Positions 8,710 through 31,995 of a DNA stretch of 64,000 nt are shown piece by piece. The stretch comes from Pseudomonadota bacterium (GTDB lineage Bacteria > Pseudomonadota > Alphaproteobacteria > Rhodobacterales > Rhodobacteraceae). Location: contig JAIUPD010000004.1 of assembly GCA_020161615.1 (NCBI GenBank), positions 310,001 through 374,000 on the forward strand. Direction: 5' to 3'. Below the pieces are notes generated by a model, which saw only the letters and a program-made list of their open reading frames with translations, was not told where the DNA came from and ran no database searches. The translations under genes and the position numbers were made by a program. The stretch's first letter is position 1. Every line of letters starts with the position of its first letter.

Positions 8710-8726
8710 TATCAACTTGCCTTATA
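8710..8726. promoter_or_regulatory. Candidate MarR operator, site 1
   Basis: TATCAACTTGCCTTATA. It matches the other four sites (13265, 26618, 27590, 31972) in the TATCA left arm and the GCCTTATA right arm, and is identical to the 31972 site over the last 9 bases. It lies midway between the divergent Rieske and thioesterase genes. Confidence 0.5.
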
Positions 8727-8769
8727 TTCGGGCGCCCCCTAGGCTGCGGCCAAAACGGAGGGGCAAAGG

Positions 8770-9690
8770 GTGGATACCGAAGTCTGGCGGGGCAGTGTCG
8801 CGGCCTGGGAATGCGACGAGATGGGGCATCTGAACACGCGGTTCTACGTGCTGCGCGCGGTCGAGGGGTTGGCCATGCTGCTGGCGCAGCTGGGCCTGCC
8901 GGGCACGACCCGCGCCGATGCCGAGACCAGTTTCGCCGTCGAGGACATGCATATCCGCTTCCACCGCGAGGCGCGGCAGGCGGCGTCGCTCAGCCTCTCG
9001 GGCGGGGTGCTGGAGGCGGGCGAGGACTGGGCCGAGGTTCTGCTGGTGATGGAGGATGTGGCCAAGGCCGAGGTCAAGGCCACTTTCCGCATCCGCCTGC
9101 GCCACATCCGCCCGGCGAGCGACGCGGCCCTGCCCTGGCCTGAGGGTTTCCCCGCTCGTGCCGAAGCCCGGCGCGTGTCGATGCCCGAGATCGCCGCCCC
9201 GCGCTCGACCCCGGTGGGGCCGGTCGTCTCGCGCGCCTCGGCCGCGGCGGCGCGGGGCATGGCGCGGCTGTCGATGGGGGTTGTCGGGCCCGACCGGGTC
9301 GACGCCTTCGGCCGGATGGGGGCCTGGAACTTCATCGGCGCGGTCTCGGACGGGATCCGCTCGCTGACCGGGCCTTTCCGCGACATCATCGCCCAGAACG
9401 CGGATCCCGTTCCCGCGCGCGTCGGCGGCGCGGTGGTCGAGTTCCGCATCCTGCATCTGGACTGGCCGCGGCTGGGGGACGCCTATGAGGTGCGTGGGGG
9501 GTTGCAGGGGATCGAGGGGCAGGTGCAGAAGCTGGTGTTCTGGATGCTGGACCCGGTTTCCGGGCGGGTCTGGGGCACGATGCAGTCGATCGCGGTGAAT
9601 TTCGACCTGGATACGCGGAAGGTGATCCGGGTATCCGACCGCGCGCGGGCGGTGCTGGCGCCGTTGAGCCTGCCGGGGTTGGAGCTGTAA
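8770..9690 (+). CDS. Double hot-dog acyl-CoA thioesterase-like protein
   Basis: A 306-aa cytoplasmic protein with two hot-dog repeats. The first (about residues 1-115) carries the 4-hydroxybenzoyl-CoA thioesterase-like segment WECDEMGHLNTRFYV, where the Asp and His-Asn positions match the catalytic region of that family; the second (about 165-300) is diverged. The start is GTG, preceded by GGAGGGG. Predicted role: hydrolysis of an acyl- or aroyl-CoA, which fits the CoA-based aromatic genes nearby. A REP-like repeat cluster follows the stop. The substrate is not determined. Confidence 0.7.
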   Translation: MDTEVWRGSVAAWECDEMGHLNTRFYVLRAVEGLAMLLAQLGLPGTTRADAETSFAVEDMHIRFHREARQAASLSLSGGVLEAGEDWAEVLLVMEDVAKAEVKATFRIRLRHIRPASDAALPWPEGFPARAEARRVSMPEIAAPRSTPVGPVVSRASAAAARGMARLSMGVVGPDRVDAFGRMGAWNFIGAVSDGIRSLTGPFRDIIAQNADPVPARVGGAVVEFRILHLDWPRLGDAYEVRGGLQGIEGQVQKLVFWMLDPVSGRVWGTMQSIAVNFDLDTRKVIRVSDRARAVLAPLSLPGLEL

Positions 9691-9697
9691 GGCGCAT

Positions 9698-10051
9698 GGT
9701 GGGATGAAATCCCACCCTACGGGGGGTGCCGGGGTGGATCGGTGCGTGCGTGAACGCACCCTACGGCACTGCCCCTGTCACGGCGATCTCGGGGTGAGAC
9801 AGGGATCGGAACATTTGTAGGGTGGGATTTCATCCCACTATCCAAGCGGGGTGCGTGCTCGCACGCACCTGTCCGCCCCGCATTGGCAAACGCCGAACGC
9901 CGCCGCGCGGGGTGGGATGAAATCCCACCCCTACAGTGCGTAAGGGACGCGGCCCTTTCCGCCGGAGTTGGATCGGTGCGTGCTCGCGCGCATCAACTCC
10001 CGCTTCGCGGAACGACGCGAACCGCCCCGTAGGGTGGATTTTCAACCCACC
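9698..10051. repeat. Cluster of REP-like GTAG-footed palindromes
   Basis: The 370-bp gap holds no gene but has seven palindromic units of two kinds. Type A, GTAG + GGTGGGATttcATCCCACC (either strand): 9698-9720, 9817-9838, 9912-9935, and a variant at 10029-10051. Type B, GGTGCGTGC...GCACGCACC: 9741-9764, 9850-9869, degenerate at 9975-9991. Most copies carry the tetranucleotide GTAG (or CTAC on the other strand) at one foot, the hallmark of REPs mobilised by RAYT transposases. The same two types recur at 19069-19385. No RAYT gene is in the window. Confidence 0.8.
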
Positions 10052-10060
10052 CCGCGCCCC

Positions 10061-10774
10061 CTACCGGAACCGCTCGGCCGTCGCCGCCGCGTTCAGCAAC
10101 GCCGCCAGCTCCTGCCGCGTCGCGCCCGAGGCCTCGGGCGCGCGCTTGAGGAAGGCCTTGACCGCCCGCACCACGGCCGGGGAATTGGCCGTGAGCGCCT
10201 CGACCACGCCCGCCACCGCCGTGTCCAGATCCTCGGCCACCACGCCGATCAGACCCATCGCCTGCGCCTCCGCCGCGCTGACCGGCTGGCGGGTCAGCAC
10301 CAGCCGGGCCAGCACCGCCCTTGGCACGCGGTCGACCAGCGCGTCCATGACCAGCGTCGGGGCGATGTCGTGACCCATCTCGGGCACGGAGAAGTCCGCA
10401 CCCCGATCCGCGACCGCCACATCCGCCAGCGCCGCCAGCGCGCAGCCGACCCCTGCGGCGCGGCCCTGTACGCGCGCCACCACCGGCACCGGGGCCGAGC
10501 GCAGCGCCTCGTAGAAACCCAGCACCGGGTCCGAGATCTTCGCCCTGAGGTCATTGGCCGTCAGCCGCGCGTCCTTCGGCGGCATGACCGGGGCGCGGCC
10601 GGTGCAGAAATCCGCCCCCTCGGCTTTCAGCAGGATCACCGTGACCTCCGGCGCCGGGGCCGAGACCGCCGCTGCGATCCCTTCCGTCATGCCCGCGGTC
10701 AGCGCGTTCCCCGCCTCGCCCCGGCAGAGCGTGATCTCCAGCACCTTGCCCTTCGTCTCGACCCTAAGCTCCAT
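10061..10774 (-). CDS. Enoyl-CoA hydratase/isomerase family protein
   Basis: A 237-aa crotonase-fold protein. The oxyanion-hole segment reads VARVQGRAAGVGCALAALAD, and the second catalytic region FSVPEMGHDIAPT has a Glu where hydratases carry one. The chain is shorter and more diverged than the two hydratase/lyase proteins at 22152 and 31082. Its start overlaps the end of the molybdenum hydroxylase gene by 11 bp, so it is the second gene of a leftward pair. A REP-like cluster lies directly downstream. Substrate unknown; a CoA thioester from an aromatic or branched acid is plausible. Confidence 0.75.
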   Translation of the reverse strand: MELRVETKGKVLEITLCRGEAGNALTAGMTEGIAAAVSAPAPEVTVILLKAEGADFCTGRAPVMPPKDARLTANDLRAKISDPVLGFYEALRSAPVPVVARVQGRAAGVGCALAALADVAVADRGADFSVPEMGHDIAPTLVMDALVDRVPRAVLARLVLTRQPVSAAEAQAMGLIGVVAEDLDTAVAGVVEALTANSPAVVRAVKAFLKRAPEASGATRQELAALLNAAATAERFR

Positions 10775-13257: not shown

Positions 13258-13285
13258 TTGACAATATCAGGCTTTCTTATATCAA
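13258..13285 (+). promoter_or_regulatory. Promoter with candidate MarR operator, site 2
   Basis: A TTGACA -35 at 13258-13263 and a TATCAA -10 at 13280-13285 (16-bp spacer) point toward the aldehyde dehydrogenase. The 17-mer TATCAGGCTTTCTTATA (13265-13281) fills the spacer, the position expected for a repressor. It shares TATCAGG and CTTATA with the site before marR. Confidence 0.6.
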
Positions 13286-13345: not shown

Positions 13346-14806
13346 ATGACCGACAGCGCGGAAGTGCTTGTGCCGCAAGGCTATACCGAGGCGGAACTCT
13401 TGATCGACGGCGAGTGGATCGGCGCCGATGCCCGTCATTCCACGCCCGTCGTGAACCCCGCGACCGGCCGCGCCATCGGCCGCGTGCCCCATGCCACGGC
13501 CGAGGATCTGGACCGGGCGCTGGCCGCGGCCGAGCGGGAGTTTCCCAAATGGCGGAAGCTCTCGCCACGCGAACGGGGGCGTATCCTGAAACGCGCCGCC
13601 GACCTGCTGCACGACCGGGGCGATGCCATCGCCCGGCTGGCGACGCTGGAAATGGGCAAGCCTCTGGGCGAGGCCAAAATCGAGCTGCATGTCGCCTGCG
13701 AAGAGCTGGAATGGTTCGCCGAGGAAGCGCGCCGCACCTGGGGTCGCATCCCGCCGGGTCGCTTCGGCGATACCCGCTTCAGCGTGATCCGCCAGCCGGT
13801 CGGCCCTGCCGCCGGCTTCTCGGCCTGGAATTTCCCGATCGGCAACGCCTGCCGCAAGATGGGCTCGGCGCTCGCCGCCGGCTGCCCCATGATCTACAAG
13901 CCGGGCGAAGAGGCCCCGGCCTCGGCCCTTGCCGTCGCGCGTTGTCTGGTCGATGCCGGGGTTCCCGCGGGCGTCATCGCCGTGGTCTTCGGCGTGCCGG
14001 ACACGATCTCGCGCCACCTCATCGCCTCGCCGGTCATCCGCAAGATTTCGTTCACCGGCTCGGTCCCGGTCGGCAAACACCTGATCAAGCTGGCCGCCGA
14101 AGGCGTGAAACGCACGACGATGGAACTGGGCGGCCATGCGCCGGTGCTGGTCTTCGACGACGCGCCTTTTGACGCCACGCTGGAACAATCCGTGTTCCGC
14201 AAATACCGCAACGCGGGGCAGGTCTGCGTCTCGCCCACGCGCTTCTATGTGCAGGACGCCACCTATGACGCTTTCTGCGCGGGCTTCGCCGAACGGGCGA
14301 AGAAGATCCGCGTCGGCGACGGGCTGGCAGCGGATACGCAGATGGGCCCCCTGGTCCATGCGCGGCGCCGCGACGGGATCGAGGCGCTGGTGCAGGACGC
14401 CGTGTCCAAGGGCGCCAAGCTGCTGGCGGGGGGCGAGCGGCTGGGCAACGACGGCTTCTATTACGCGCCGACCGTGCTGGCCGATGTCCCGGACGAGGCA
14501 CGGATCATGTCCGAGGAACCCTTCGGCCCGGTCGCCGTGCTGAACCGCTTCACCGGCATCGACGATGCGATCCAAAAGGCGAATGCGCTGCCCTATGGCC
14601 TCGCCGCCTATGCCTTCACCCAGTCGGTCGCCAACATCCACCGGCTTTCGGACGAGATCGAGGCCGGGATGTTTGGCATCAATTCCTTCAACATCTCGAT
14701 GCCCGAGACCCCTTTCGGCGGGGTCAAGGAAAGCGGGCTGGGCTCCGAGGTCGGGACCGAGGGTCTGGACGCCTATCTCGTCACCCGCACCATCTCTGTC
14801 ACCTGA
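13346..14806 (+). CDS. NAD(P)-dependent aldehyde dehydrogenase
   Basis: A 486-aa ALDH-superfamily enzyme close in layout to succinate-semialdehyde and aromatic aldehyde dehydrogenases. The catalytic Cys is residue 294 (GQVCVSP) and the general-base Glu is residue 260 (MELGGHAP); the N-terminal nucleotide region has FSAWNFPIGN and KPGEEAPAS. GGGGGAGG precedes the ATG. It heads a rightward four-gene unit with a ThDP decarboxylase and two 2-hydroxyacid dehydrogenases, so its likely substrate is the aldehyde released by the decarboxylase. About 40% identical by eye to the enzyme at 22996, so the two may serve different aldehydes. Confidence 0.85.
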   Translation: MTDSAEVLVPQGYTEAELLIDGEWIGADARHSTPVVNPATGRAIGRVPHATAEDLDRALAAAEREFPKWRKLSPRERGRILKRAADLLHDRGDAIARLATLEMGKPLGEAKIELHVACEELEWFAEEARRTWGRIPPGRFGDTRFSVIRQPVGPAAGFSAWNFPIGNACRKMGSALAAGCPMIYKPGEEAPASALAVARCLVDAGVPAGVIAVVFGVPDTISRHLIASPVIRKISFTGSVPVGKHLIKLAAEGVKRTTMELGGHAPVLVFDDAPFDATLEQSVFRKYRNAGQVCVSPTRFYVQDATYDAFCAGFAERAKKIRVGDGLAADTQMGPLVHARRRDGIEALVQDAVSKGAKLLAGGERLGNDGFYYAPTVLADVPDEARIMSEEPFGPVAVLNRFTGIDDAIQKANALPYGLAAYAFTQSVANIHRLSDEIEAGMFGINSFNISMPETPFGGVKESGLGSEVGTEGLDAYLVTRTISVT

Positions 14807-14814: not shown

Positions 14815-16515
14815 ATGAAATACCAGATCCCGACCGGCACCACCGCGGCCGAAGACGTCCTGAGCCGCCTGAAAGCTGCGGGGGTCGAGGTGCTGTTCGC
14901 CAATGGCGGCACCGATTTCCCCTCGATCATCGAGGCGTATGCGAATGCGGGCGAAAGCGGGCTGGACCTGCCGACGGTGCACACGATCACCCATGAGGGC
15001 GTGGCGCTGGGCATGGCGCATGGCTGGTATCTGATGAAGGGCACGCCCGCCGGGGTCATGGTGCATGTGAACGTCGGGCTGGCCAACGCGGTGATGGGCC
15101 TGATCAACGCCCGCTCGGAAAGCGTGCCGGTGGTGATGTGTTCCGGCCGGACGCCCCTGACCGAGGGCAACAGGTTCGGCTCGCGCTCCTCGCCGATCCA
15201 CTGGGGGCAGGAGATGCGCGATCAGGCGGCGATGATCCGCGAGGTGGTGAAATGGGATTACGAGCTGCGCTATCCCGAGCAGGGCGGCGCGGTCGTGGAC
15301 CGGGCCGTCAGCATCGCCATGAGCGAGCCGCGCGGGCCGGTCTACCTGTCCCTGCCGCGCGAGGTTCTGGCCGAGGAAAAGCCGATCCCGCCGCATCGCC
15401 CGGGCACCAATGTCGCGCCCACCAGCTACGCCGCCGCCGATCCCGCCGCGATCCGTCGGGCGGCCGAGGCGCTGGCCAGGGCCAAGCGCCCGGTCATCAT
15501 TTCGCAAAGCCCCGACCATTTCGCGGGCTTCGATCTGCTGGCCGCGCTGGCCGAGACCCACGCGATCCCGGTCGTCGAATACTGGTCGATCCGGCAGGCG
15601 CTGCCGACAACCCACCCGATGCATGCGGGCCGCGAGCCGACGCCCTGGGTCAAGGACGCCGACGTGATCGTGGCGTTGAACGCCATGGTCCCCTGGATCC
15701 CCGAGACGGTCGAGCCGCCGGTTGACTGCACGATCATCGCGCTGGGCCCGGATCCGCTGCACCAGACGGTGCCGAACCGGGGCTTCCCCATCGACATCTC
15801 GCTGGCGGGCGGCATCACGCCGACGCTGACCGCGCTGAAGGCGGAACTGGACGCGCTGGCCGGGGACACCGCGCATCCCGAACGCCGCGCCCAGGTGGCG
15901 GAGTTCCGCGCTCGTCAAGCCGAGGGCGTGGCGAAGCGCGTCGCCGCCGGGCAGGGGCAGCCGATGAGCCCGGCCTATGTCTCGAAATGCCTGTCCGACG
16001 CGGCCGACGACAGCTTCACCTTCGTCAACGAGCTGGGCGTCGATCCCTCGGTGATGGAATTCCGGGCGCCGAAGACACTGTTCGGCTCGCCCCTGTCCGG
16101 GGGCCTCGGCTGGGGGATGACCGCGGCCTTGGGCGCGCAGCTGGCGGCGCCGGACCGGCAGGTGGTGGCCTGTGTGGGCGACGGCTCCTATCTTTTCGCC
16201 AACCCCTCGGCCTGCCACCAGACGGCGGCCGCGCTGGGCCTGCCGCTGCTTACCGTGGTCTTCAACAACGGCATCTGGAACGCGGTCCGCCGCTCGACGC
16301 TCTATATGTACCCCGAGGGGAAAGCGGCGCAGGCCAACACCATGCCGATCACCTCGCTGGCGCCGATGCCCGACCATGCGGCGGCGGCCCGGGCCCATGG
16401 CGCCCATGCCGAGCAGGTGGTGGACGGCGCCGACCTGCCCGCCGCGATCCAGCGCGCGCTGGCCGCGACGAAGGCCGGGCAGCAGGCGCTTCTGGAAGTG
16501 GTGGTGAGCTATTGA
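14815..16515 (+). CDS. Thiamine-diphosphate-dependent decarboxylase (benzoylformate decarboxylase/ALS-like)
   Basis: A 566-aa ThDP enzyme. The N-terminal Pyr domain has THEGVALGMAHG with the cofactor-activating Glu near residue 61; the C-terminal PP domain has the metal/diphosphate motif VGDGSYLFANPSACHQT ending in VVFNNGIWN. In this superfamily acetolactate synthase, benzoylformate decarboxylase and oxalyl-CoA decarboxylase share the fold, so the name rests on context: it lies 8 bp after an aldehyde dehydrogenase and overlaps a mandelate-dehydrogenase-like gene (TGATG). Predicted role: 2-oxo acid to aldehyde plus CO2. A carboligase role is the main alternative. Confidence 0.75.
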   Translation: MKYQIPTGTTAAEDVLSRLKAAGVEVLFANGGTDFPSIIEAYANAGESGLDLPTVHTITHEGVALGMAHGWYLMKGTPAGVMVHVNVGLANAVMGLINARSESVPVVMCSGRTPLTEGNRFGSRSSPIHWGQEMRDQAAMIREVVKWDYELRYPEQGGAVVDRAVSIAMSEPRGPVYLSLPREVLAEEKPIPPHRPGTNVAPTSYAAADPAAIRRAAEALARAKRPVIISQSPDHFAGFDLLAALAETHAIPVVEYWSIRQALPTTHPMHAGREPTPWVKDADVIVALNAMVPWIPETVEPPVDCTIIALGPDPLHQTVPNRGFPIDISLAGGITPTLTALKAELDALAGDTAHPERRAQVAEFRARQAEGVAKRVAAGQGQPMSPAYVSKCLSDAADDSFTFVNELGVDPSVMEFRAPKTLFGSPLSGGLGWGMTAALGAQLAAPDRQVVACVGDGSYLFANPSACHQTAAALGLPLLTVVFNNGIWNAVRRSTLYMYPEGKAAQANTMPITSLAPMPDHAAAARAHGAHAEQVVDGADLPAAIQRALAATKAGQQALLEVVVSY

Positions 16516-17696
16516 TGGACCCGCGCCTCGTCCCGCTGCGGCGTCGTTTCCCCATGGTGGCGGATCTGGAACGCCGGGCGCGCTGGCGCATCCCGCGTTT
16601 CGCCTTCGACTTCCTGCAGGGCGGCGCGGGGGACGAGACGGGCATGCCCCGCAACCGCCGCGCGCTGCAAGCGGTCGAGGTGATGCCGCGCTATGGCGTG
16701 AAGGTCGGAAATGTGGACCCCTCTGCCGAGCTGTTCGGGCATCGCTATGCTGCCCCGGTGGGGATCGCGCCCATCGGCTTTGACGGGATCATGTGGCCCG
16801 GCGCGACCCGCGCTTTCGCCGAGGCGGCGCAGGCGCTGAACCTGCCTTATATGGTCGGCACGCTGGCGACCGAGACGATCGAGACGGTGGCGGCACTCGC
16901 GCCCGACGTGACCTGGTTCCAGCTTTATCCGCTGGCGGCCGAGGATCACCGGATAACCTTTGACCTCGCCGACCGGGCCGAGCGCGCGGGCGCCAAGGTG
17001 CTGGCCGCGACGCTCGATGTGCCGGCCCGCACCAAGCGGCCGCGCGACATGCGCAACGGCTTCGGGATGCCCTTCCGCCTGACCGCGAGCCTGTTCGCGC
17101 AGGCCGCCGTGGCCTGGCCCTGGTCACTGGCCATCGCCCGGCACGGCATCCCGACCTTCGCCAACATCGTTCCGTACTCCGGCCCCGGCCGCGACGTAAC
17201 CGCGGCTTTCGTCGGCAAGCATGTCGGCGGCGGTTTCGACTGGGACGCGCTGGCGCGGCTGCGCGACCGCTGGCCCCGGGCGATGATGGTCAAGGGCGTG
17301 ATGCATCCCGAGGATGCGGAGCGGGCGGTGGCTTTGGGTATCGACGGCGTGGTCGTCTCGAACCACGGCGGGCGGCAGTTCGACGCGGCCCCGGCCCCGG
17401 TCGACGTGTTGCCGCTGGTGGCAGGGGCGGTCGGGTCGCGGGCCACAGTGATGCTGGACAGTGGCGTCACGGCAGGCGTGGACGTGCTGCGCGCGCTGGC
17501 CCTGGGCGCCAAGGGCGTGCTGGCGGGGCGGGCCTTCATGCTGTCGCTCGCTGCGCTGGGCGATATCGGGGCGCGGCACATGGGCGGCGCGTTCATCGAG
17601 GAGTTGAGCCTCGCCATGGGTCAGACCGGCGTTACCCGTGTCGAGGACATCCAGACCCTCGCGACCCGTCACCCGGGCGCCTGGAGGCTGCCATGA
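16515..17696 (+). CDS. FMN-dependent L-2-hydroxyacid dehydrogenase (mandelate/lactate dehydrogenase-like)
   Basis: A 393-aa FMN alpha-hydroxyacid oxidoreductase. The active-site motif SNHGGRQFD is at residues 282-290, His284 being the proton acceptor, with the phosphate-binding region DSGVTAGVDVLRALALGAKGVLAGRA split across the C-terminal third and VKGVMHPEDA supplying the Lys. Start ATG overlaps the decarboxylase stop, and its stop overlaps the next start (ATGA). Expected to oxidise the L/S enantiomer of a 2-hydroxy acid to the 2-oxo acid used by the upstream decarboxylase. Substrate not proven; mandelate, 4-hydroxymandelate and lactate-type acids are candidates. Confidence 0.85.
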   Translation: MDPRLVPLRRRFPMVADLERRARWRIPRFAFDFLQGGAGDETGMPRNRRALQAVEVMPRYGVKVGNVDPSAELFGHRYAAPVGIAPIGFDGIMWPGATRAFAEAAQALNLPYMVGTLATETIETVAALAPDVTWFQLYPLAAEDHRITFDLADRAERAGAKVLAATLDVPARTKRPRDMRNGFGMPFRLTASLFAQAAVAWPWSLAIARHGIPTFANIVPYSGPGRDVTAAFVGKHVGGGFDWDALARLRDRWPRAMMVKGVMHPEDAERAVALGIDGVVVSNHGGRQFDAAPAPVDVLPLVAGAVGSRATVMLDSGVTAGVDVLRALALGAKGVLAGRAFMLSLAALGDIGARHMGGAFIEELSLAMGQTGVTRVEDIQTLATRHPGAWRLP

Positions 17697-19060
17697 CCCC
17701 GTTCCTGAGCGAATTGACCGAGGCTTTGGGCGAGAAGGTCTCGCTGAATGAGGCCGTCCGCGACCACCACGGCCACGACATGAGCCGCCTGCCGGCGCAT
17801 CGCCCCGACGCCGTGGTCTTCCCGACCGAGGAGGCCGATGTGGTCGCCGCCGTTAAGCTCTGCGCGAAGCATGGCGTGCCGGTGGTGGCGGTCGGTGCGG
17901 GCTCGTCGATGGAGGGGCATACGATCCCGGTGAAGGGCGGCATCAGCCTGGACCTGAAGGGCATGAACCGGATCCTCGCCGTCCATGACGCCGATTTCGA
18001 CGCGGTGGTCGAGGCGGGCGTGACCCGCAAGCGGCTGAACGAGCACCTGCGCGACCGGGGGCTGATGTTCACCGTCGACCCCGGGGCCGATGCGACGCTG
18101 GGCGGCATGGCCTCGACCCGCGCCTCGGGCACCACGGCAGTCCGCTATGGCACGATGCGCGAGGCGGTGATCGCGCTTCGCGTGGTGACGGCCTCGGGCG
18201 AGGTGGTGGAAACCGGGCGGCGGGTCAAGAAATCCTCGACCGGCTATGATCTGACGAAGCTGTTCGTGGGGGCCGAGGGGACGCTGGGCATCATCACCGA
18301 GGTGACGGTCCGGCTGCATCCGATACCGGAGGTCACGGCCTCGGCCATCTGCGCCTTCGCGACGATGGAGGGGGCGGTGCAGACGGTGGTCGAGACCCTG
18401 CAATCGGCGCTGCCGGTGGCGCGGATCGAATTCCTGGACGAGGTGGCGGTTCAGGCGGCCAATGCCCATGCCGGGCTGGGCCTGACCGTGGCGCCGACGC
18501 TGTTTCTGGAGTTCCATGGGTCCGAGCGCTGGGTCGCCGAGCAATCCGAGGCGGTCCGGGCGCTGGCCTCGGAGAACGGCGGCGCCGATTTCGCCTGGTC
18601 GACGCGGCCCGAGGACCGGGCGCGGCTCTGGAAGGCGCGGCACGAGACGATCTATTCCAACCAGTCGCTGCGCCCGGGCTGCAAGACCTATACGACCGAT
18701 GTCTGCGTGCCGGTGTCGCGGCTGGCCGAGGCGGTGCTGGAAGCCCGGCGCGAGGCGGATACGGCGCCCTTCCCGGTCAAGATCATCGGCCATGTGGGCG
18801 ACGGGAATTTCCACGTCGGCTATCTGATCATGCCGGGGGACGAGCGCGAATACGCCATCGCCGACGCGCTGGCCGAGCGGCTCTACCAGCGGACCATGGA
18901 TATGGGCGGGACGTTCTCGGGCGAGCATGGGGTCGGGGTGTCGAAGCTCAAGTACATCAGGCGCGAGCATGGCGGAGGCGTCGATTTGATGAAGGCGATC
19001 AAGGCGGCGCTGGACCCGCGAGGGATCATGAACCCGGGGAAGCTGGGACAGGAGGGGTAG
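17693..19060 (+). CDS. FAD-linked D-2-hydroxyacid dehydrogenase (D-lactate dehydrogenase/GlcD-like)
   Basis: A 455-aa VAO-type flavoprotein. The FAD-binding PCMH segment includes VVAVGAGSSMEGHTIP and DPGADATLGGMASTRASGT; the C-terminal FAD-oxidase domain has KIIGHVGDGNFH and SGEHGVGVSKLKYI, matching cytochrome-linked D-lactate dehydrogenases. GGAGG lies inside the previous gene and the ATG overlaps its stop. Family members oxidise D-2-hydroxy acids to 2-oxo acids, passing electrons to cytochrome c or quinone. Together with the L-specific FMN enzyme it would handle both enantiomers without a racemase. Last gene of the operon; a repeat cluster follows. Confidence 0.87.
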   Translation: MTPFLSELTEALGEKVSLNEAVRDHHGHDMSRLPAHRPDAVVFPTEEADVVAAVKLCAKHGVPVVAVGAGSSMEGHTIPVKGGISLDLKGMNRILAVHDADFDAVVEAGVTRKRLNEHLRDRGLMFTVDPGADATLGGMASTRASGTTAVRYGTMREAVIALRVVTASGEVVETGRRVKKSSTGYDLTKLFVGAEGTLGIITEVTVRLHPIPEVTASAICAFATMEGAVQTVVETLQSALPVARIEFLDEVAVQAANAHAGLGLTVAPTLFLEFHGSERWVAEQSEAVRALASENGGADFAWSTRPEDRARLWKARHETIYSNQSLRPGCKTYTTDVCVPVSRLAEAVLEARREADTAPFPVKIIGHVGDGNFHVGYLIMPGDEREYAIADALAERLYQRTMDMGGTFSGEHGVGVSKLKYIRREHGGGVDLMKAIKAALDPRGIMNPGKLGQEG

Positions 19061-19068: not shown

Positions 19069-19385
19069 GGTGCGTGCGAGCATGCACCCTACGGGGGGCG
19101 CCGTGGTGGGATGAAATCCCGCGCTACGGGGGCTCGGGCTGGGTTGCCTTGGCTCGAAACAGGAATGTCTCGCCGAGCAGCGCCCTCCACGCGCAACGAG
19201 AGGTCGTGGATGAGGGATGAAACGCAGAGTGCGTGCGCGCACGCACCTTGGCGTGGGCGATGGTGGGATGAAATCCCACCCTACAGGGTGACGCGACAAA
19301 GGTAGGGTGGGATTTCATCCCACCCCGTCGCGGACCCCGTGTTCGTGCGGCCGGGCGCCCCCGTAGGGTGGGGTTTCACCCCACC
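19069..19385. repeat. Second cluster of REP-like GTAG-footed palindromes
   Basis: The 331-bp gap between two convergent genes holds no gene. Type A units: 19105-19127 (mutated), 19262-19284, 19302-19324, 19363-19385. Type B units: 19069-19092 and 19229-19246, the latter a perfect 18-bp palindrome GTGCGTGCG/CGCACGCAC. The units are in both orientations, as in BIME-type REP clusters. They match the cluster at 9698-10051 nearly base for base. Confidence 0.8.
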
Positions 19386-22995: not shown

Positions 22996-24444
22996 TTAAG
23001 ATTGACTGACGGTCTTGGTGACCAGATAGGCGTCCATCCCCTCGGTCCCGCCCTCGCTGCCGTAGCCGGATTGCTTGACGCCGCCGAAGGGGGTTTCGGG
23101 CATGTTGATCATGACATTGTTGATGCCGAGCATCCCGGCCTCGACCCGGTCGGCCAGCGCCTGCGCGGTCGCCGTGTCGCGGGTGAAGGCATAGGAGGCG
23201 AGGCCGAAGGGCAGGCGGTTGGCCTGATGGATCACCTCGTCCAGAGACTGGAACCGGGCGGTCACGGCGACGGGGCCGAAGGGCTCCTCGTTCATGATCC
23301 GGGCGGTGTCGGGGACATCGGTCAGGATGGTCGGCGCGAAGAAATTGCCCCGGTTGCCCAAGGCCTCGCCGCCCAGTCTGAGGCCTGCGCCGTGGTTCAG
23401 CGCATCCTCGACCAGCCCCTGCATGGCACTGATCCGGCGGGGATTGGCCAGCGGCCCCATGGTCGTGGCGGGGTCCATCCCGTCGCCAACTTTCAGCTTT
23501 TCGGCAGCGGCAGCGAAGCCCTCCACGAAACGGTCATGCACCGCCTCGTGAATATAGAAGCGGGTCGGCGCGATGCAGATCTGGCCGGCGTTGCGGAACT
23601 TCGCCCCGGCCAGCACCTGCACGGCGGCGTCCACATCGGCATCCTCGAAGATCATCACCGGCGCGTGGCCGCCCAATTCCATCGTCGCGCGCTTGACGCC
23701 CGCCTTGGCGGCCAGCACCGCCAGTTGCTGGCCGACGCCGGTCGAGCCGGTAAAGGTGATCTTGCGGATTTCCGGGGCGGCGATCAGGCGTTCGCTGACC
23801 TCGGCCGGGACGCCGCAGACGACGTTGAGCACGCCCTTCGGCAGGCCCGCATCGTCCAGCGCGCGGGCCAGTTCGATGACCGAGGCCGGGGTTTCCTCGG
23901 AGGGTTTGATGACCATGGTGCAGCCGGTCGCCAGCGCTGCCGAGATCTTGCGCGCCGGGATCACGGCGGGGAAGTTCCAGGGGGTGAAGGCGGCGACCGG
24001 GCCGACCGGCTCGCGCGTCACCATCCAGCGCATGCCGGCCACACGGGCGGGGACGATGCGGCCATAGGTCCGGCGGCCCTCGTCGGCGGTATAGTCGAAG
24101 ATATCGGCCGAGATCAGCGCCTCCAGCCGCGCCTCGGCGAAGGGCTTGCCCTGTTCCAGCGTCATCCGGCGGCCGATGTGGTCGGCGCGCTCGCGCAAGA
24201 GGGTCGCTGCCTTGCGCAGGATCATCGCCCGGTCATAGGCCGGCACCCGGCGCCAACTGGCGAAGGCCGCTTCCGCCGCCGCTGCCGCGCGGTCCAGATC
24301 CGCGGCGCTGGCATGGGGCAGCAGGCCCACCGGTTCGCCCGTCGCGGGGTTCAGCACCGGTTCGGTTACGCGGCCTTCGGTGCCCAGCCATTCACCGGCG
24401 ATGAACAGCTGCAAGGGGCCGTAGCGGTCGTCGATCTTGGTCAT
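22996..24444 (-). CDS. Aldehyde dehydrogenase (aromatic aldehyde/vanillin dehydrogenase-like)
   Basis: A 482-aa NAD(P)-dependent ALDH. It carries the Cys motif GQICIAP, the Glu motif MELGGHAPVMIF, the Rossmann-side FTPWNFPAVIPAR and KPSEETPAS. It lies 3 bp after the CoA ligase gene and 10 bp before the hydratase/lyase gene, so it probably oxidises the aromatic aldehyde released by that lyase to the acid, giving 4-hydroxybenzoate or vanillate. By sequence alone succinate-semialdehyde dehydrogenase is equally compatible; the context decides. Confidence 0.85.
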   Translation of the reverse strand: MTKIDDRYGPLQLFIAGEWLGTEGRVTEPVLNPATGEPVGLLPHASAADLDRAAAAAEAAFASWRRVPAYDRAMILRKAATLLRERADHIGRRMTLEQGKPFAEARLEALISADIFDYTADEGRRTYGRIVPARVAGMRWMVTREPVGPVAAFTPWNFPAVIPARKISAALATGCTMVIKPSEETPASVIELARALDDAGLPKGVLNVVCGVPAEVSERLIAAPEIRKITFTGSTGVGQQLAVLAAKAGVKRATMELGGHAPVMIFEDADVDAAVQVLAGAKFRNAGQICIAPTRFYIHEAVHDRFVEGFAAAAEKLKVGDGMDPATTMGPLANPRRISAMQGLVEDALNHGAGLRLGGEALGNRGNFFAPTILTDVPDTARIMNEEPFGPVAVTARFQSLDEVIHQANRLPFGLASYAFTRDTATAQALADRVEAGMLGINNVMINMPETPFGGVKQSGYGSEGGTEGMDAYLVTKTVSQS

Positions 24445-24447: not shown

Positions 24448-26568
24448 TCACTCCGTCACGAAGAGGGCGTCGAGCGCGACCGCGCCCTCCGCATGGACAA
24501 CCAGCGGGTTGATATCGACCTCGAGGATCTGCGGATTGGCCCGCATCAGCGCGCCCAGCCGCACCGCCACCTCGGCCACCGCATCCACGTCGCGGGCGGG
24601 CTGACCGCGGAACGGGCCGAGCAGACGCGCGGATTTCAGCGACAGGATCTCGGCCTTGGCGCGGGCGAGGCTGACATCGGCCGGCATCAGGCGGGAATCG
24701 CGCAGCACCTCGATCCAGACGCCACCCAGACCGACCAGCACCATCGGCCCCCAGTTCGGGTCGCGCTTGGCGCCGATCACCAGTTCGAGGCCGGGCTGCA
24801 CCATCTCCTCGACCAACACGCCGTCCAGCGTCAGGTCCGGCGCGGCGGCCTCAATATTGGCATGGAGCCGGTCCCATCCGGCGCGCAGCGCGGCCTCGTC
24901 CTTGAGGCCCACGATGACACCGCCCGCGTCGCTTTTGTGGCTCAGCTTGGCGGCTTGGGCCTTCAGGACCAGCGGGTAGCCGATGCGGTTGGCGATGGCG
25001 ACGGCCTCGTCGGCGGTCCTCGCCATGCCGCCCTTCGGCACCGAGAGGCCCAGATCGGCGAGCACCTGCTTGCCGATATATTCCACCACCGCCCCGCCCT
25101 TGGGCAGGTCCAGTGCCGGTGCGGTCCTTGTGTCGCGATCCTCGGCGGCGACGCGGGCGGCGGCGTAATCGGCGACCAGCTTCATCGCCCGCATGGCCCG
25201 TTCGGGCGAGCGGAAGAAGGGAATGCCGCAGGCCTTCACCTTCTCCACGAAGGCGGGCGCCAGCGGGTAATCGTCGCCGATCAGGCAGAAGACGATGGGC
25301 TTGTCGGCCTGCTCATAGACCGGCAGCAGGTAGTCGATCTTCTTTTCCTGCATGGCGGGCGAGCCGCCGGCATGGACGCTGAGGATGATACCGACGCCCG
25401 GGTCCTTCAGCATCGCCGTGGCCGAGGTGCCGTAGATCCCGGGATTGGCAAAGCCCGTGGTGCCGATGTCGAAAGGGTTGTCGACATGGACATAGGGCGG
25501 GACCTGTTCGGTCAGTTCGGCCGTAACCTCGGGCGTCAGCGTGGCGATGGGCAGGCCGATCGTCTCGCCGAAGTCGAAGGCGAGGCCGCGGATCGCGCCC
25601 GAATTGGTGACGATGCCCGCGGCACCCGGGGCGGGGGCGGGGAAACGGGCGAGGATGGCGCAGGTGTCGAACATCTCGTCCAGCGTCGGCACGCAGACCA
25701 CGGCCTCGGCCCGGGCTGCGGCCAGCATCAGCGCGTGATCGCCCGCGAGCGCCCCGGTGTGGGATTCCGCCGCCTTCCGGCCCCGTTCGGACGAGCCCGG
25801 GTGCAGCATGACGATGGGCTTGGCCAGCGCCCGCGCCCGGGCGGCGAGCGTCAGGAACCGCGCCGGGTCGCGCAGTTGTTCGACATAGACGGCGATGACG
25901 GCGATCTTGGCGTCATCGAGCGCGTGGTCGATGAAATCTTCGGCCCCCAGCAGCGCCTCGTTGCCGGTGGCCACGACATGCGAGATGGCGACCGAGCGGG
26001 CCTGCAGCGCGAAGCGGATATTGGCCGCCGTGGCGCCCGACTGGGCGATGATCGCCACGCGTGAGCCCTGACCCACGTCATGCCTGGCGACCGGCTCGAA
26101 GGTCATTGGCACGCCGGCGACGAAATTGGTGTAGCCCATGCAGTTCGGACCCAGCAGCGCCACGCCCGCGTCAGCGCAAAGCTGCGCCAGTTCCTCCTGC
26201 GCGCGACGGCCGTCTTCGGAGGCCTCGGCAAAGCCCGAGGTGAAGATGACGATGGCGCCGACGCCCTGCGCGATACAGGCCACGACCGAGTCGCGGATCG
26301 CCTTGAAGGGCACGATCAGCACCGCGACATCGACGCCGTGCGGCAGGTCGGCCACCGATTTGACGCAGGGCCGGCCGTTGATCTCGTCGCGTGAGCGGCT
26401 GACGAGGTGGATGTCGCCGGTGAAGCCGAAAAGCTCCAGGTTCGACAGGACCCCGCCGCCCACCGAATCGCGTTCCGGCGTCGCGCCCAGGATCGCCACC
26501 GAGCGCGGGTTGAGCAGGCGCTCGACGGCGCCCCGCGCGCTCCCCTCCGGTCTTGCAATTCCACCCAT
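24448..26568 (-). CDS. NDP-forming acyl-CoA ligase, FerA-like
   Basis: A 706-aa fused alpha-beta ligase of the ADP-forming acetyl-CoA synthetase superfamily, the group of feruloyl-CoA synthetase FerA of Sphingobium SYK-6. Order: CoA-binding domain (residues about 20-115, RSVAILGATPERDSVG), succinyl-CoA-ligase-like domains with the phosphorylated His in AAESHTGALAGDH, and a C-terminal ATP-grasp (about 485-700, VLKAQAAKLSHKSDAGGV). ATG is chosen because GGAGG is 6 nt upstream; a GTG one codon earlier is poorer. First gene of the ligase-ALDH-lyase-ACAD operon. Predicted to activate a hydroxycinnamate or related acid. Confidence 0.82.
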   Translation of the reverse strand: MGGIARPEGSARGAVERLLNPRSVAILGATPERDSVGGGVLSNLELFGFTGDIHLVSRSRDEINGRPCVKSVADLPHGVDVAVLIVPFKAIRDSVVACIAQGVGAIVIFTSGFAEASEDGRRAQEELAQLCADAGVALLGPNCMGYTNFVAGVPMTFEPVARHDVGQGSRVAIIAQSGATAANIRFALQARSVAISHVVATGNEALLGAEDFIDHALDDAKIAVIAVYVEQLRDPARFLTLAARARALAKPIVMLHPGSSERGRKAAESHTGALAGDHALMLAAARAEAVVCVPTLDEMFDTCAILARFPAPAPGAAGIVTNSGAIRGLAFDFGETIGLPIATLTPEVTAELTEQVPPYVHVDNPFDIGTTGFANPGIYGTSATAMLKDPGVGIILSVHAGGSPAMQEKKIDYLLPVYEQADKPIVFCLIGDDYPLAPAFVEKVKACGIPFFRSPERAMRAMKLVADYAAARVAAEDRDTRTAPALDLPKGGAVVEYIGKQVLADLGLSVPKGGMARTADEAVAIANRIGYPLVLKAQAAKLSHKSDAGGVIVGLKDEAALRAGWDRLHANIEAAAPDLTLDGVLVEEMVQPGLELVIGAKRDPNWGPMVLVGLGGVWIEVLRDSRLMPADVSLARAKAEILSLKSARLLGPFRGQPARDVDAVAEVAVRLGALMRANPQILEVDINPLVVHAEGAVALDALFVTE

Positions 26569-26617
26569 CACGCCCCTCCCTCACGTCCCGGCTTTTCATC
26601 CTCCGGCGTGGAATGGG

Positions 26618-26643
26618 TATCAGGGAGCCGTATATCTGTCAAC
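26618..26643 (-). promoter_or_regulatory. Promoter region with candidate MarR operator, site 3
   Basis: The 17-mer TATCAGGGAGCCGTATA (26618-26634) is followed, reading leftward, by a TTGACA -35 at 26643-26638. The order TTGACA-G-dyad is the same as at 31972-31995. It lies 50 bp upstream of the CoA ligase start and so should control the ligase operon. Confidence 0.6.
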
Positions 26644-27397: not shown

Positions 27398-27862
27398 GTG
27401 TTCCTCCCTGCCTGCCATGTTTCGGCCCCGACCCCGCGACCAGAATCAGCCCGGGGGTCACGGCAATCCTCCTGCGGTTGAACGCCGGTCGCCGCGGTCC
27501 CCGCCCCCGGAGGCGATCTGCCCGCTGGATCGGCCGCAGAAGGCGCGTCATCCGATATCGTATAAATTCATGTGACAGAGTTGAAGTTATATTCGGGAGC
27601 CGAATATACAAAAAATCTGTTGTAATACAGATATTTGCGAATGGTTTACGCGAACGTTAAGCGTGAACTCGGCACGAATCACCGCGAAAATACCTGTTGA
27701 CTGCGGGGACCTGTGCCGCATGAATGAGGGCAGGAAGCGGTCGATCGACCGGGTTCCCGTTCGGATCGTACCCCGGCAAAAGGCGGGTCCGTTCCGACGA
27801 AATCCGGGTGCGACCGCCGCCGACACCGAGCGTGCCTCAGGGAGATTGGGAGGATTGACCCT
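27398..27862. other. AT-rich divergent control region without genes
   Basis: A 465-bp gap between the SDR (leftward) and tctC (rightward). The half near the SDR is ordinary GC-rich sequence; 27545-27700 is strikingly AT-rich for this genome and holds a promoter/operator (27581-27610). From there to tctC a leader of about 245 nt would be transcribed, with no ORF I can support. No riboswitch was recognised. Confidence 0.6.
27581..27610 (+). promoter_or_regulatory. tct promoter enclosing candidate MarR operator, site 5
   Basis: TTGAAG (27581-27586), an 18-bp spacer and TATACA (27605-27610) form a sigma-70-like promoter toward tctC. The spacer is filled by a perfect dyad, TATATTCGG-gag-CCGAATATA (27588-27608). 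Its core TATTCGGGAGCCGAATA matches the 26618 site at 14 of 17 bases. Confidence 0.65.
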
Positions 27863-28970: not shown

Positions 28971-29429
28971 TTGAGCAGAATAAAGGCAGTCGACATCCTG
29001 GCAGGGGGATTCGTCGTACTCATCGGCGTCCTTGCCATCGTTGAATCGACCAGTTTCGACATGGGCACCTCGCGCCGCATCGGGCCGGGATATTTCCCGT
29101 TCTACGTGGGCATGCTGATGGTCCTCCTCGGCATCGCCATCGCGGTCGAGAATCTCTGGGCCAGAACCAGCAGCGACTTCGGCTGGAGCTTGCCGCCGAT
29201 GCGCTCTCCCCTCCTGATCCTTGCCGCCGTCGCCGCCTTCGCGGTGATGATCGAACGCTTCGGCATGTTTCCGTCGATCTTCGCGGCGGTGTTCCTGGGC
29301 TCGCTGGCCGATACCAACACCGCGATCTGGCAGAAGCTGGCGATCTCGGTCGCCGTGCCCGTCGTCTGCGTCGTCATCTTCAAATACGGCCTGTCGCTCA
29401 ACGTCGATGTCATCCGGTGGCGGCCATGA
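28971..29429 (+). CDS. tctB: Tripartite tricarboxylate transporter small membrane subunit TctB
   Basis: A 152-aa inner-membrane protein with four hydrophobic helices (first at AVDILAGGFVVLIGVLAIV, last at LAISVAVPVVCVVIFKYG), the size and layout of TctB. The start is taken as TTG because GGAGG lies 5 nt upstream; an in-frame ATG 16 codons earlier has no ribosome site. The stop overlaps the tctA start (ATGA). It forms the membrane complex with TctA. Confidence 0.85.
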   Translation: MSRIKAVDILAGGFVVLIGVLAIVESTSFDMGTSRRIGPGYFPFYVGMLMVLLGIAIAVENLWARTSSDFGWSLPPMRSPLLILAAVAAFAVMIERFGMFPSIFAAVFLGSLADTNTAIWQKLAISVAVPVVCVVIFKYGLSLNVDVIRWRP

Positions 29430-30949
29430 GCGATTTTGCCTCGAACCTCGCGCTGGGCTTTTCGGTCGCCTTCTCGTGGCAGGCGATGTGGTATTGCTTC
29501 GTCGGCGTCTCGCTGGGGACCTTCATCGGCGTCCTGCCGGGGATTGGCGCGCTGGCGGCCATCGCGCTGTTGCTGCCGCTGACCTTCGGCATGGAACCGG
29601 CGCATGCGCTGATCATGCTGGCAGGCATCTATTACGGGTCGAATTACGGCGGCTCGACTGCCTCGATCCTGCTGAACCTGCCGGGCACGCCCTCGTCCGC
29701 CGTCACCTGCATCGAGGGCTATCCAATGTCCCAGCAGGGCCGGGCGGGTGTCGCGCTGTTCATGACGGCCATTGCGTCCTTCATCGGCTCGATCTGCGGC
29801 ATGCTGATCATGGCGATCTTCTCGCCGCCCATCGCCGCACTGGCTTTCAGCTTTTCCGCGCCCGAGTTCTTTTCGCTGATGGTGCTGGGCATGGTCGCGG
29901 CCTCGACGCTGGCCTCGGGCTCGCCCCTCAAGGGGCTGGCGATGATCGGGCTGGGGCTGATCCTGGGCATGGTCGGGCGTGACCTCTACTCGGGGCTGCT
30001 GCGCTTTTCCTATGGCGTTGATCAGCTTTACGAAGGCCTGCCGCTGGTGGCCGTCGCCCTCGGCATCTTCGGCCTGCCCGAGGTGATCAAGAACGCGGGC
30101 CAGATCACCGGCCGCACGGTCGAGGCGCGCTCGATCTCGTTCGCGTCCATGTGGCCGACGCGGGACGACTGGCGCCGCAGCTGGGGCGCGATGTTTCGCG
30201 GCACCGGGCTGGGATCCTTCTTCGGCGCGTTGCCCGGCACCGGCGGCTTGCTGGCCAGCTTCATGTCCTACGCCACCGAGCGCCGGGTCGCCAAGGATCC
30301 GTCGCGCTTCGGCAAGGGTGCCATCGAGGGCATCGCCGGGCCCGAGGCCGCCAACAACGCCGCCGTGCAGACCGCCTTCATCCCGACGCTGACGCTGGGC
30401 ATTCCGGGCGATATCGTCATGGCGATCATGCTGGGGGCGCTGACCATCCACGGCATCCAGCCGGGCGTCTCGGTGATCAACAACCACCCGGACCTGTTCT
30501 GGGGGCTGCTGGTCAGCTTCCTGCTGGGCAACTTCCTGCTGCTGATCCTGAACATCCCGCTGATCGGGCTCTGGGTGCGGATCCTCGCGATCCCCTATTG
30601 GGTGCTCTATCCGTTCATCATCGCCTTCATCTGCATCGGTGTTTACAGCGTCTCCAACTCGGTCGTGGACCTCTATGTGCTGATGTTCTTCGGCGTCCTC
30701 GGCATCGTGATGAACATCCTGCGGTTCGAACCGGCGCCCCTGGTGCTGGGGCTGATCCTGGGGCCGATGCTGGAGGAAAACCTGCGCCGCTCGCTCACGC
30801 TCTATCGCGGCAGCTATACGGTGTTCCTGACGCGGCCGATCTCGGCCCTGTTCATCGGCATCGCCGTGCTGATCCTGGCCTGGACGATCTATGGCATGTT
30901 CCGCGCCCGGGCCCGCCGCCGGGCCGCGCTGGCCGCGGGCGAGGAGTGA
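29426..30949 (+). CDS. tctA: Tripartite tricarboxylate transporter large membrane subunit TctA
   Basis: A 507-aa polytopic inner-membrane transporter subunit. The conserved LPGIGALAAIALLLPLTFG and GIYYGSNYGGSTASILLNLP segments near residues 35-85, and their internal repeat ALPGTGGLLASF plus GPEAANNAAVQ, are TctA signatures. The ATG overlaps the tctB stop; a GTG 9 bp upstream is not needed. It drives proton- or sodium-coupled uptake of the ligand bound by TctC. A strong terminator follows 20 bp after the stop. Confidence 0.93.
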   Translation: MSDFASNLALGFSVAFSWQAMWYCFVGVSLGTFIGVLPGIGALAAIALLLPLTFGMEPAHALIMLAGIYYGSNYGGSTASILLNLPGTPSSAVTCIEGYPMSQQGRAGVALFMTAIASFIGSICGMLIMAIFSPPIAALAFSFSAPEFFSLMVLGMVAASTLASGSPLKGLAMIGLGLILGMVGRDLYSGLLRFSYGVDQLYEGLPLVAVALGIFGLPEVIKNAGQITGRTVEARSISFASMWPTRDDWRRSWGAMFRGTGLGSFFGALPGTGGLLASFMSYATERRVAKDPSRFGKGAIEGIAGPEAANNAAVQTAFIPTLTLGIPGDIVMAIMLGALTIHGIQPGVSVINNHPDLFWGLLVSFLLGNFLLLILNIPLIGLWVRILAIPYWVLYPFIIAFICIGVYSVSNSVVDLYVLMFFGVLGIVMNILRFEPAPLVLGLILGPMLEENLRRSLTLYRGSYTVFLTRPISALFIGIAVLILAWTIYGMFRARARRRAALAAGEE

Positions 30950-30968: not shown

Positions 30969-31001
30969 AAAAGGGCGGCAGGGTAAACCTGCCGCCCTTT
31001 T
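30969..31001 (+). terminator. Rho-independent terminator of tctCBA
   Basis: AAAAGGGCGGCAGG / CCTGCCGCCCTTTT with a 5-nt loop: a 14-bp perfect stem flanked by A and T runs. Confidence 0.9.
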
Positions 31002-31027
31002 CAGTGGGCGCCCGGGAGAGCGATACG

Positions 31028-31058
31028 AAAAAAGGGCGGCCGGATCGCCCCGCCGCCC
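31028..31058 (-). terminator. Rho-independent terminator of hydratase/lyase gene
   Basis: Read leftward: GGGCGGC, 11-nt loop, GCCGCCC, then six T. It lies 24 bp beyond the stop of the leftward gene at 31082 and back to back with the tct terminator. Confidence 0.85.
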
Positions 31059-31081
31059 CTGTTCGTGCCGATGGGCTGCGG

Positions 31082-31930
31082 TCAGTCGCCGCTGCGATCA
31101 TAAGCGCCCAGACCCGGGCGATAGCGCTTCTCGTCGATGAACTGGCTCATGCCCTTGGCCGCGCCCTGCGTCCGGTCGCGGAAGGTCGTGGAATCGGCCT
31201 TGGCCATCAGGTATTCCAGCGCCTGATCCCAGCCCATCTGCCGGACATGGTGATAGGCAGTCTTGGCGCCCCGCAGCACATGCTGGTTCTTGCCCCGCAG
31301 GGTCTGCGCCAGTTTCGTGACCTCGGCATGCAGCTGGTCGGCCGGGACCGCCTTGTTCACCAGCTTCATCTCGGCGGCCTGTTTGCCGTCGAAGGTCTCG
31401 CCGGTCATGATGTAATACATCGCGTCGCGCTGGCTCATCACCATGGACACCGATTTCGTCACGATGCCGGCGGGAATGATGCCCCAGTTGATTTCCGACA
31501 GGCCGAAGGTCGCATCCTCGGCCGCGATCGCCAGATCGCAGCCAATCAGGATCTGGAAGGCGCCACCGAAGCACCAGCCGTTGACCGCGGCAATGGTCGG
31601 CTTCCTGTAGAACATGGTCCGGCGCCATTGCCAGGCCGCGTTCATCGCGAAGAGCCGGTCGCGCTCATGCGGCGGCCAGGCCTCGGTCTCGCGGAAATAT
31701 TCCTTCAGGTCCTGCCCGGCGGAGAAGGCATTCCCGGCGCCGGTGACGACGATCACCTCGGCCTCGTCCATGCCTTCCAGCGCATCCATCACCGCCGTCA
31801 TCTCATAGACGATGCCCGGGTTGATGGCGTTGCGCTTGTCGGGGCGGTTCAGGGTGACCCAGGCCACGCCGTCCTCGATGGCGAGGGTGACATTCTCCCC
31901 CCAGCCCTTGCCTGCACCACCGTGACTCAT
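31082..31930 (-). CDS. Hydroxycinnamoyl-CoA hydratase/lyase-like crotonase (paralogue 2)
   Basis: A 282-aa paralogue of the protein at 22152, with KPTIAAVNGWCFGGAF and ATFGLSEINWG including the catalytic Glu. Unlike paralogue 1 it keeps the active-site Tyr (DLKEYF), but the position matching Ser123 of the Pseudomonas lyase is Gln (GGAFQIL). It stands alone between its own terminator and the divergent marR gene, with an operator in the 64-bp gap. The two paralogues may split substrates by ring substitution or side chain; which is the true lyase is not decidable from sequence. Confidence 0.82.
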   Translation of the reverse strand: MSHGGAGKGWGENVTLAIEDGVAWVTLNRPDKRNAINPGIVYEMTAVMDALEGMDEAEVIVVTGAGNAFSAGQDLKEYFRETEAWPPHERDRLFAMNAAWQWRRTMFYRKPTIAAVNGWCFGGAFQILIGCDLAIAAEDATFGLSEINWGIIPAGIVTKSVSMVMSQRDAMYYIMTGETFDGKQAAEMKLVNKAVPADQLHAEVTKLAQTLRGKNQHVLRGAKTAYHHVRQMGWDQALEYLMAKADSTTFRDRTQGAAKGMSQFIDEKRYRPGLGAYDRSGD

Positions 31931-31971
31931 TGTCAGACTCCCTGAGTTCCACTACGCTTTGAGGGAGACCA

Positions 31972-31995
31972 TATCAGGGTGCCTTATACTGTCAA
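31972..31995. promoter_or_regulatory. Candidate MarR operator, site 4, with TTGACA
   Basis: TATCAGGGTGCCTTATA at 31972-31988, with TTGACA on the minus strand at 31995-31990 toward the hydratase/lyase gene. The dyad ends 6 bp before the marR ATG, so binding would block both genes and give autoregulation. Confidence 0.65.

Follow-up and report, generated by a model that had tools for sequence, protein, structure and literature searches.

Three systems controlled by repressors of the MarR family are the closest described counterparts of the locus considered here. HcaR of Acinetobacter baylyi ADP1 controls hydroxycinnamate catabolism, which proceeds through a CoA ligase and a hydratase/lyase, and reportedly responds to hydroxycinnamoyl-CoA (PMC5487221, PMC10458429). 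FerC of Sphingobium SYK-6 controls the ferulate catabolic genes, its binding to DNA being inhibited by hydroxycinnamoyl-CoAs (PMC5487221). The CouR proteins of Rhodococcus jostii RHA1 and Rhodopseudomonas palustris are repressors of several p-hydroxycinnamate promoters (PMC4737184, PMC3610893); the RHA1 CouR box is the inverted repeat cATTGA-N5-TCAATg, located over the -35 (PMC4737184), and the R. palustris CouR regulon includes ABC and TRAP transporters (PMC3610893). The locus compared with them belongs to a 64-kb stretch of DNA from a member of the Rhodobacteraceae (contig JAIUPD010000004.1, positions 310,001 to 374,000; hereafter the window, always at its full length), where a 17-bp dyad recurs at the promoters of a putative regulon spanning about 23 kb. 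On sequence grounds, this dyad is very probably the operator recognized by the product of the marR gene at 31995-32444. The protein is proposed to repress the linked promoters, and with them the genes for breaking down plant phenolic acids, and to be released by a thioester inducer.

The window protein belongs to the MarR family, as witnessed by its NCBIfam matches (HpaR, OhrR, SlyA and MarR models, all below the equivalog cut-offs) and by phmmer matches to HcaR and other MarR structures. HcaR is its closest solved relative, though a distant one (E 1.1e-12 over residues 10-126), and the PDB chain named CouR (6c28) matches it weakly (E 3e-4). Proteins of this family typically have a palindromic operator of about 15-20 bp in their own marR promoter, where 31972-31988 is the candidate. 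As for a repressor of hydroxycinnamate genes, the window harbors two genes for p-hydroxycinnamoyl-CoA hydratase/lyase (HCHL) scoring above the NF006588 cut-off, together with an ADP-forming CoA ligase-like gene, and candidate operators lie upstream of them. By analogy, the window MarR may work like HcaR, FerC and CouR.

FerC is not known to control genes other than ferBA. The statements on HcaR cited above concern the hca operon (PMC5487221, PMC10458429), whereas several promoters are proposed for the window MarR. The half-site of the window dyad, TAT[A/C]AGG (loosely TATNNGG), is present in two inverted copies with a 3-bp spacer and differs in both sequence and spacing from the RHA1 CouR box, so that the dyad falls outside the CouR operator class; moreover, the R. 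palustris transporters are of the ABC and TRAP types, while the importer in the window is of the Tct type.

Five dyads in intergenic promoter regions

An earlier note on this DNA had listed five 17-bp sites in intergenic promoter regions. All five sequences were found in the window at the positions given there, and all lie between genes as called here; the site at 31972 would be inside marR only if the in-frame TTG at 31959 were the marR start. These candidate operators, referred to below by their first position, are the following (no strand is assigned).

Operator 1, 31972..31988, TATCAGGGTGCCTTATA, between the hydratase/lyase gene (-) and marR (+)
Operator 2, 26618..26634, TATCAGGGAGCCGTATA, upstream of the CoA-ligase operon (-)
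Operator 3, 27590..27606, within the perfect 9+3+9 dyad TATATTCGGGAGCCGAATATA before tctC; the weakest candidate of the five
Operator 4, 13265..13281, TATCAGGCTTTCTTATA, upstream of the alpha-hydroxy-acid cassette
Operator 5, 8710..8726, TATCAACTTGCCTTATA, between the Rieske gene (-) and the thioesterase gene (+)

Their strength is uneven: 31972, 26618 and 13265 are strong, the left arm of 8710 is damaged, and 27590 is a perfect dyad with a divergent half-site. A second, weak dyad at 8725-8741, scoring 5.0 with the window matrix, tentatively overlaps operator 5.

The sites exceed chance expectation. The pattern TATCAGGNNGCCNTATA with up to three mismatches has nine matches in the window (the five sites, two opposite-strand readings of those, and the positions 52176 and 63459) versus 1.07 expected from shuffles, none of 100 shuffles reaching nine. 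The pattern TATNNGGNNNCCNNATA, composed after the sites (27590 included) had been seen, has five window matches with up to one mismatch versus 0.35 expected (13265, 26618, 27590, 31972 and 8725) and misses 8710; its exact form occurs at four places in the genome, three of which (26618, 27590 and 31972) are in the window within 5.4 kb, and with one mismatch it is found genome-wide at 32 places versus 36 for the control. With up to two mismatches, TATMAGGNNNCCTKATA has 14 places in the whole genome, four in the 23-kb cluster and ten in the remaining 4.8 Mb, versus six for the reversed control pattern. Outside the cluster the dyad thus occurs near the control level. The earlier note had stated that matches equally dense within genes or ahead of unrelated ones would overturn its proposal, and these genome-wide counts put that condition to the test.

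The ten places outside the cluster were considered as further targets and rejected. C4:110840 falls in the 3'-terminal part of a gene whose product, from its sequence, resembles a response regulator. C17:1366 and C17:58882 are intergenic, the latter between a LysR gene and a putative hydro-lyase gene, C18:36608 may be intergenic, and the rest lie in long open frames. The site at C17:1366 (TATCAGGTGCTCATATA, L111 1366-1382, from the same genome as the window) is 33 nt before the ATG of a MetE-like methyltransferase gene; it is kept in the sister genome G198, but the 140 nt preceding the orthologous genes of G207, G214 and G050 do not contain it, and it was not added to the targets.

The position of the dyads within the promoters agrees with what the earlier note had described. 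At 13265, TTGACA (13258-13263, +) stands directly ahead of the site, and 27590 lies between TTGAAG (27581-27586) and TATACA (27605-27610), both on the + strand; 26618 and 31972 adjoin TTGACA at 26642-26637 (-) and 31995-31990 (-), respectively. The 31972 site abuts the divergent marR/lyase pair, ending 6 nt before the marR ATG (31995), and the marR start codon shares sequence with the -35 of the lyase promoter. If TATACT (31985-31990) were the marR -10 box, the marR message could be leaderless. In a set of 53 site orientations, at least five of the six TTGACA letters stand beside the dyad in 26 (1-3 nt upstream in 25 of them; background 2.6%), a share that is descriptive, the rows having been chosen by hand and three window sites entered in both orientations. 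As read from the sequence, the dyads adjoining TTGACA fill the -35/-10 spacer and reach the -10 box, which is a place suited to a repressor that would exclude RNA polymerase.

Association of the dyad with marR in other genomes

A scan of genome contigs with six peptide patterns retrieved 39 loci that encode a relative of the window MarR. When a matrix built from the five window sites was applied to them, 20 proved to have a site no more than 250 nt upstream of marR. Among 300 column-permuted control matrices, two near-copies of the real one (correlation 0.92 and 0.83) reach 18 loci, and the 293 with a correlation below 0.6 reach at most three. The invariance of the helix-turn-helix region (SSAxLxRxFFVTPQTM in 40 sequences) was dropped as evidence, because FFVTPQTM is one of the six patterns that selected the loci, and the invariance is therefore at least partly a result of the search.

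The same dyad was recovered when the window's matrix was not used at all. De novo palindromic motif sampling in the marR upstream regions of 12 other loci (mostly from Rhizobiales or unplaced alphaproteobacteria, with L059 apparently corresponding to G162, of the window's own family) disclosed one dyad per locus, identical to those first located with the window's matrix. When the window is scanned with the 17-wide matrix of the de novo dyads, 31972 (23.0), 26618 (17.3), 13265 (17.0) and 8710 (11.6) occupy ranks 1-4, the next place scoring 11.4. The matrix derived from the dyads first located with the window's matrix gives 24.6 for 31972, 21.3 for 13265, 19.0 for 26618 and 16.6 for 8710, the next place scoring 12.4; in 60 first-order random 64-kb sequences, the median best score of this matrix is 11.5 and the maximum 19.0.

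Within the genus, the dyad follows the gene. Of 18 congeners, four have marR, and the same four have the thioesterase gene and three to six places with up to one mismatch; among the other 14, ten have none and four have one. In G198, three of its six places are within the cluster. In the family sample (198 genomes), TATMAGGNNNCCTKATA occurs exactly in G000 and G050 only, whose MarR proteins are the two closest to that of the window (100% and 64% identical), and the genome with the third-closest MarR (G162, 48%) has a one-mismatch dyad beside its marR.

As a control, 25 HCHL loci of other genomes, taken from a phylum sample of 398, were scanned with 1.5-kb flanks. A good site was present in L162 only, the sole locus with a MarR relative of E <1e-20 beside the lyase gene. 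In this more distant genome of the same phylum, TATCAGGCTACCTGATA (2408-2424) precedes the HCHL gene, and the adjoining MarR is 32.5% identical; on this basis, the operator may extend beyond alphaproteobacteria and Halomonas. Scored at 13, the sites of the 39 loci divide into 19 in called coding DNA and 42 in noncoding DNA, a 14.5-fold ratio in density obtained with a matrix partly trained on the same loci and with a crude gene caller that overextends starts, so that several of the "coding" sites are promoter sites. Taken together, these comparisons with relatives strongly support a single operator, linked to MarR and present at several promoters.

Extent of the regulon and competing explanations

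The genes of the catabolic cluster on which the extent of the regulon is to be judged are listed below, from marR leftwards.

31995..32444, +, marR, 149 amino acids, proposed repressor, with the alternative in-frame start mentioned above
31082..31930, -, p-hydroxycinnamoyl-CoA hydratase/lyase 2 (HCHL2), NF006588, 388 bits versus a cut-off of 276
29417..30949, +, TctA-like subunit, named by position, without NCBIfam match; similar genes in L039-L043
28923..29429, +, TctB-like subunit, named by position; similar genes beside TctA/TctC in L039-L043
27863..28855, +, TctC substrate-binding protein, PF03401
26672..27418, -, SDR oxidoreductase, divergent from tctC across operator 3
24448..26571, -, ADP-forming acyl-CoA synthetase-like protein (the CoA ligase), presumably FerA-like
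22996..24444, -, aldehyde dehydrogenase 2, vanillin dehydrogenase-like by position only
22152..22985, -, p-hydroxycinnamoyl-CoA hydratase/lyase 1, above the NF006588 cut-off
19902..22151, -, fused acyl-CoA dehydrogenase pair
17693..19060, +, GlcD-like alpha-hydroxy-acid dehydrogenase linked to flavin adenine dinucleotide (FAD), below the equivalog cut-off
16512..17696, +, alpha-hydroxy-acid dehydrogenase dependent on flavin mononucleotide (FMN), PF01070, E 7e-111
14815..16515, +, enzyme dependent on thiamine pyrophosphate (TPP), PRK08327 family, 635 bits versus a cut-off of 456, probably a 2-oxo-acid decarboxylase
13346..14806, +, aldehyde dehydrogenase 1 (ALDH1)
8770..9690, +, 4HBT_2 thioesterase, 306 amino acids, PF13279
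8269..8634, -, Rieske [2Fe-2S] protein, regulon membership uncertain
5830..6699, IclR protein, in the operon divergent from 8710

Short inverted repeats around GGGTGGGAT and ATCCCACCC, resembling dispersed REP-type elements, were also observed in intergenic DNA of the window (9700-10060 and 19273-19325).

The conservation of the sites differs from one promoter to another. The site of the CoA-ligase operon is in the same place in L039-L043, and L047 (Oceanicella), which has a MarR relative, has neither the CoA-ligase operon nor the site in its stretch. The cassette site precedes ALDH1 in L138, L139 and L140, and a site before ALDH1 (74-78% identical) is also found in the Mesorhizobium/Aminobacter loci L048, L049 and L054. 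The thioesterase site, poor in the window, is in the same place and higher-scoring in G050 (L137, TATCAGGTTGCCTTACA, 18.9) and G207 (L140, TATCAGGGGTGCTGATA, 18.8); it scores 15.4 in G198 (L138) and 11.8 in G214 (L139), and thioesterase sites are present in L048 and L049 as well. In Mesorhizobium, the cassette and the thioesterase gene both have sites in one divergent promoter region. In G050 this site is flanked by an IclR-like gene on one side and the thioesterase gene on the other, so that the Rieske genes need not be in the regulon.

Some of these loci show overlapping dyads with a 15-bp offset and a shared arm, possibly a double operator (L048, 293-324 and 6620-6651; L054, 116-147 and 6437-6468), and the window may have a weak version of this arrangement at 8710-8741. 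Tandem dyads were rejected as a general feature: they were seen in L048, L049 and L054, and with the window matrix an extra match at the 15-bp offset accompanies only 4 of 40 strong sites.

The earlier note had assigned all five promoters to a single repressor, and this proposal is supported, with some weaker points. Four of the five sites are top-ranked by the matrices from marR promoters, the orthologous promoters carry sites, and in the genus the dyad co-occurs with marR; the Tct site is found only in close relatives, and the Rieske genes may stand outside. A number of results count against this reading. Nineteen of the 39 related loci lack a site beside marR; 18 of them form one clade on a quick protein tree, and therefore the trait changes only twice, and within this clade L048, L049, L054 and L065 have sites at other promoters (e.g., SDR, FMO, ALDH1 and thioesterase). 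In G050 (L137), no ALDH1 was found, and the TPP/FMN/GlcD cassette is without a site, the second-best score in L137 being 4.9. With one mismatch, at least one place occurs in 41 of the 198 family genomes, and G013 and G059, which have no close MarR, have four such places each (control counts 2 and 0, respectively), as many as G000 and G050; the one-mismatch counts in the family sample do not discriminate. Furthermore, the margin of 8710 over the next-best window match by the de novo matrix is 0.2, the site has no GG in its left arm and no recognizable -35, and when the de novo matrix is 16 or 15 wide, other places rank in among the sites. Finally, 9 of 500 column-permuted matrices give at least five window matches and, because eight of the nine are not near-copies of the real matrix, the match count alone is not decisive.

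The Neorhizobium-type loci L050-L053, L055-L057 and L061 (near 5100-5300) and L065 (9691) show a half-degenerate TATACGGCTCCCTGC that resembles operator 2; these loci have no site at marR.

A possible, if rather unlikely, alternative is a narrower regulon, in which MarR would act on its own unit, the CoA-ligase operon, the cassette and the thioesterase gene, and 27590 would be the site of another regulator or a lineage-specific oddity. The rank of 27590 speaks for it, being the 14th in the window with the de novo 17-wide matrix and the 13th with the matrix of the dyads located with the window's own, and the DNA preceding tctC in L041-L043 yielded no good dyad; these results also count against the five-promoter set. 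However, 27590 is one of the exact and closely spaced genome places of TATNNGGNNNCCNNATA (a pattern that, as said, postdates its discovery), L039 retains both the TTGAAG box and the dyad, as do L040/L139 with an altered left arm, and the TATTCG half-site recurs in L054. Being kept only in close relatives, the tctC site is a weaker, though still probable, member of the MarR regulon.

It is very unlikely that the dyad belongs to a different regulator, such as the IclR protein at 5830-6699. Its gene is in the operon divergent from 8710, and relatives 34-70% identical are present in several related loci (39% in L137), as would suit an IclR operator; yet L044, L046, L059 and L068, among others, have a site adjacent to marR and no IclR relative in the fetched stretch, and within the genus it is marR that the site follows. 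A different perfect dyad, TTCAACATTGTTGAA (8646-8660), stands directly before the Rieske/amidohydrolase/IclR operon and is a candidate IclR site; this argument is weak, because the dyad (11-12 of 12 arm letters) is kept only in L139 and L140, being absent from the sister stretch L138 and from 13 other loci scanned. Least probable of all is that the sites are AT-rich promoter spacers and -10 boxes of a G+C-rich genome, alike by chance: their TATA portion falls on -10-like sequence, two of them (8710 and 27590) depart from the consensus and some permuted matrices find five to seven window places, but the GG/CC arms stand at a fixed spacing, the same dyad emerges de novo from marR promoters elsewhere and the places are in excess in the congeners that carry marR.

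Proposed mechanism and its meaning for hydroxycinnamate catabolism

On the preferred reading, that of the dyad as the operator of the window MarR, a MarR dimer bound between -35 and -10 would keep RNA polymerase off. Repression would cover the divergent unit at its own gene (hydratase/lyase 2, probably together with marR), the operon of the CoA ligase, the alpha-hydroxy-acid cassette and the gene for the thioesterase; the Tct importer is probably included as well. By analogy with HcaR, FerC and CouR, the inducer is most likely p-hydroxycinnamoyl-CoA or a close thioester of the pathway, which would release the MarR dimer.

A further proposal, which we regard as quite doubtful, is that the repressor couples the cleavage of the hydroxycinnamate side chain to the alpha-hydroxy-acid route (FMN- and FAD-linked dehydrogenases, TPP decarboxylase and aldehyde dehydrogenase), both being fed by one plant substrate, e.g., an ester of a hydroxycinnamate with an aromatic alpha-hydroxy acid, for which the alpha/beta-hydrolase encoded at 33645-34820 would be the esterase. 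The latter is 73-86% identical in several related clusters and could supply the pathway by hydrolyzing an ester; the matrix gave no match close to the 5' end of its gene.

The type of repression is already known, and it is the target set that is newly mapped and broader. In the parts of PMC11837543 and PMC7797058 that were accessible, no operator sequence of HcaR or FerC is given, and in the accessible part of a survey of regulons in Proteobacteria the MarR-family regulator shown is HmgS, for tyrosine degradation (PMC5343134). The literature search, whose thin coverage of subscription papers makes it no proof of absence, returned no account recognized as this operator or as a Pararhodobacter hydroxycinnamate regulon. 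As far as that search reaches, the operator, a regulon spread over at least four promoters, and the tie to the alpha-hydroxy-acid route appear to be new.

The dyad provides a testable operator consensus for a group of MarR proteins in alphaproteobacteria and Halomonas, plus one similar site in L162, and a sensor for lignin-derived phenolics could be based on the pair of repressor and operator. If the ester-substrate proposal were true, a single MarR switch would govern a branch of phenylpropanoid catabolism that has not been described so far. The putative regulon would link an uncharacterized mandelate-type alpha-hydroxy-acid cassette and a thioesterase to hydroxycinnamate degradation, and it points to candidate substrates for them.

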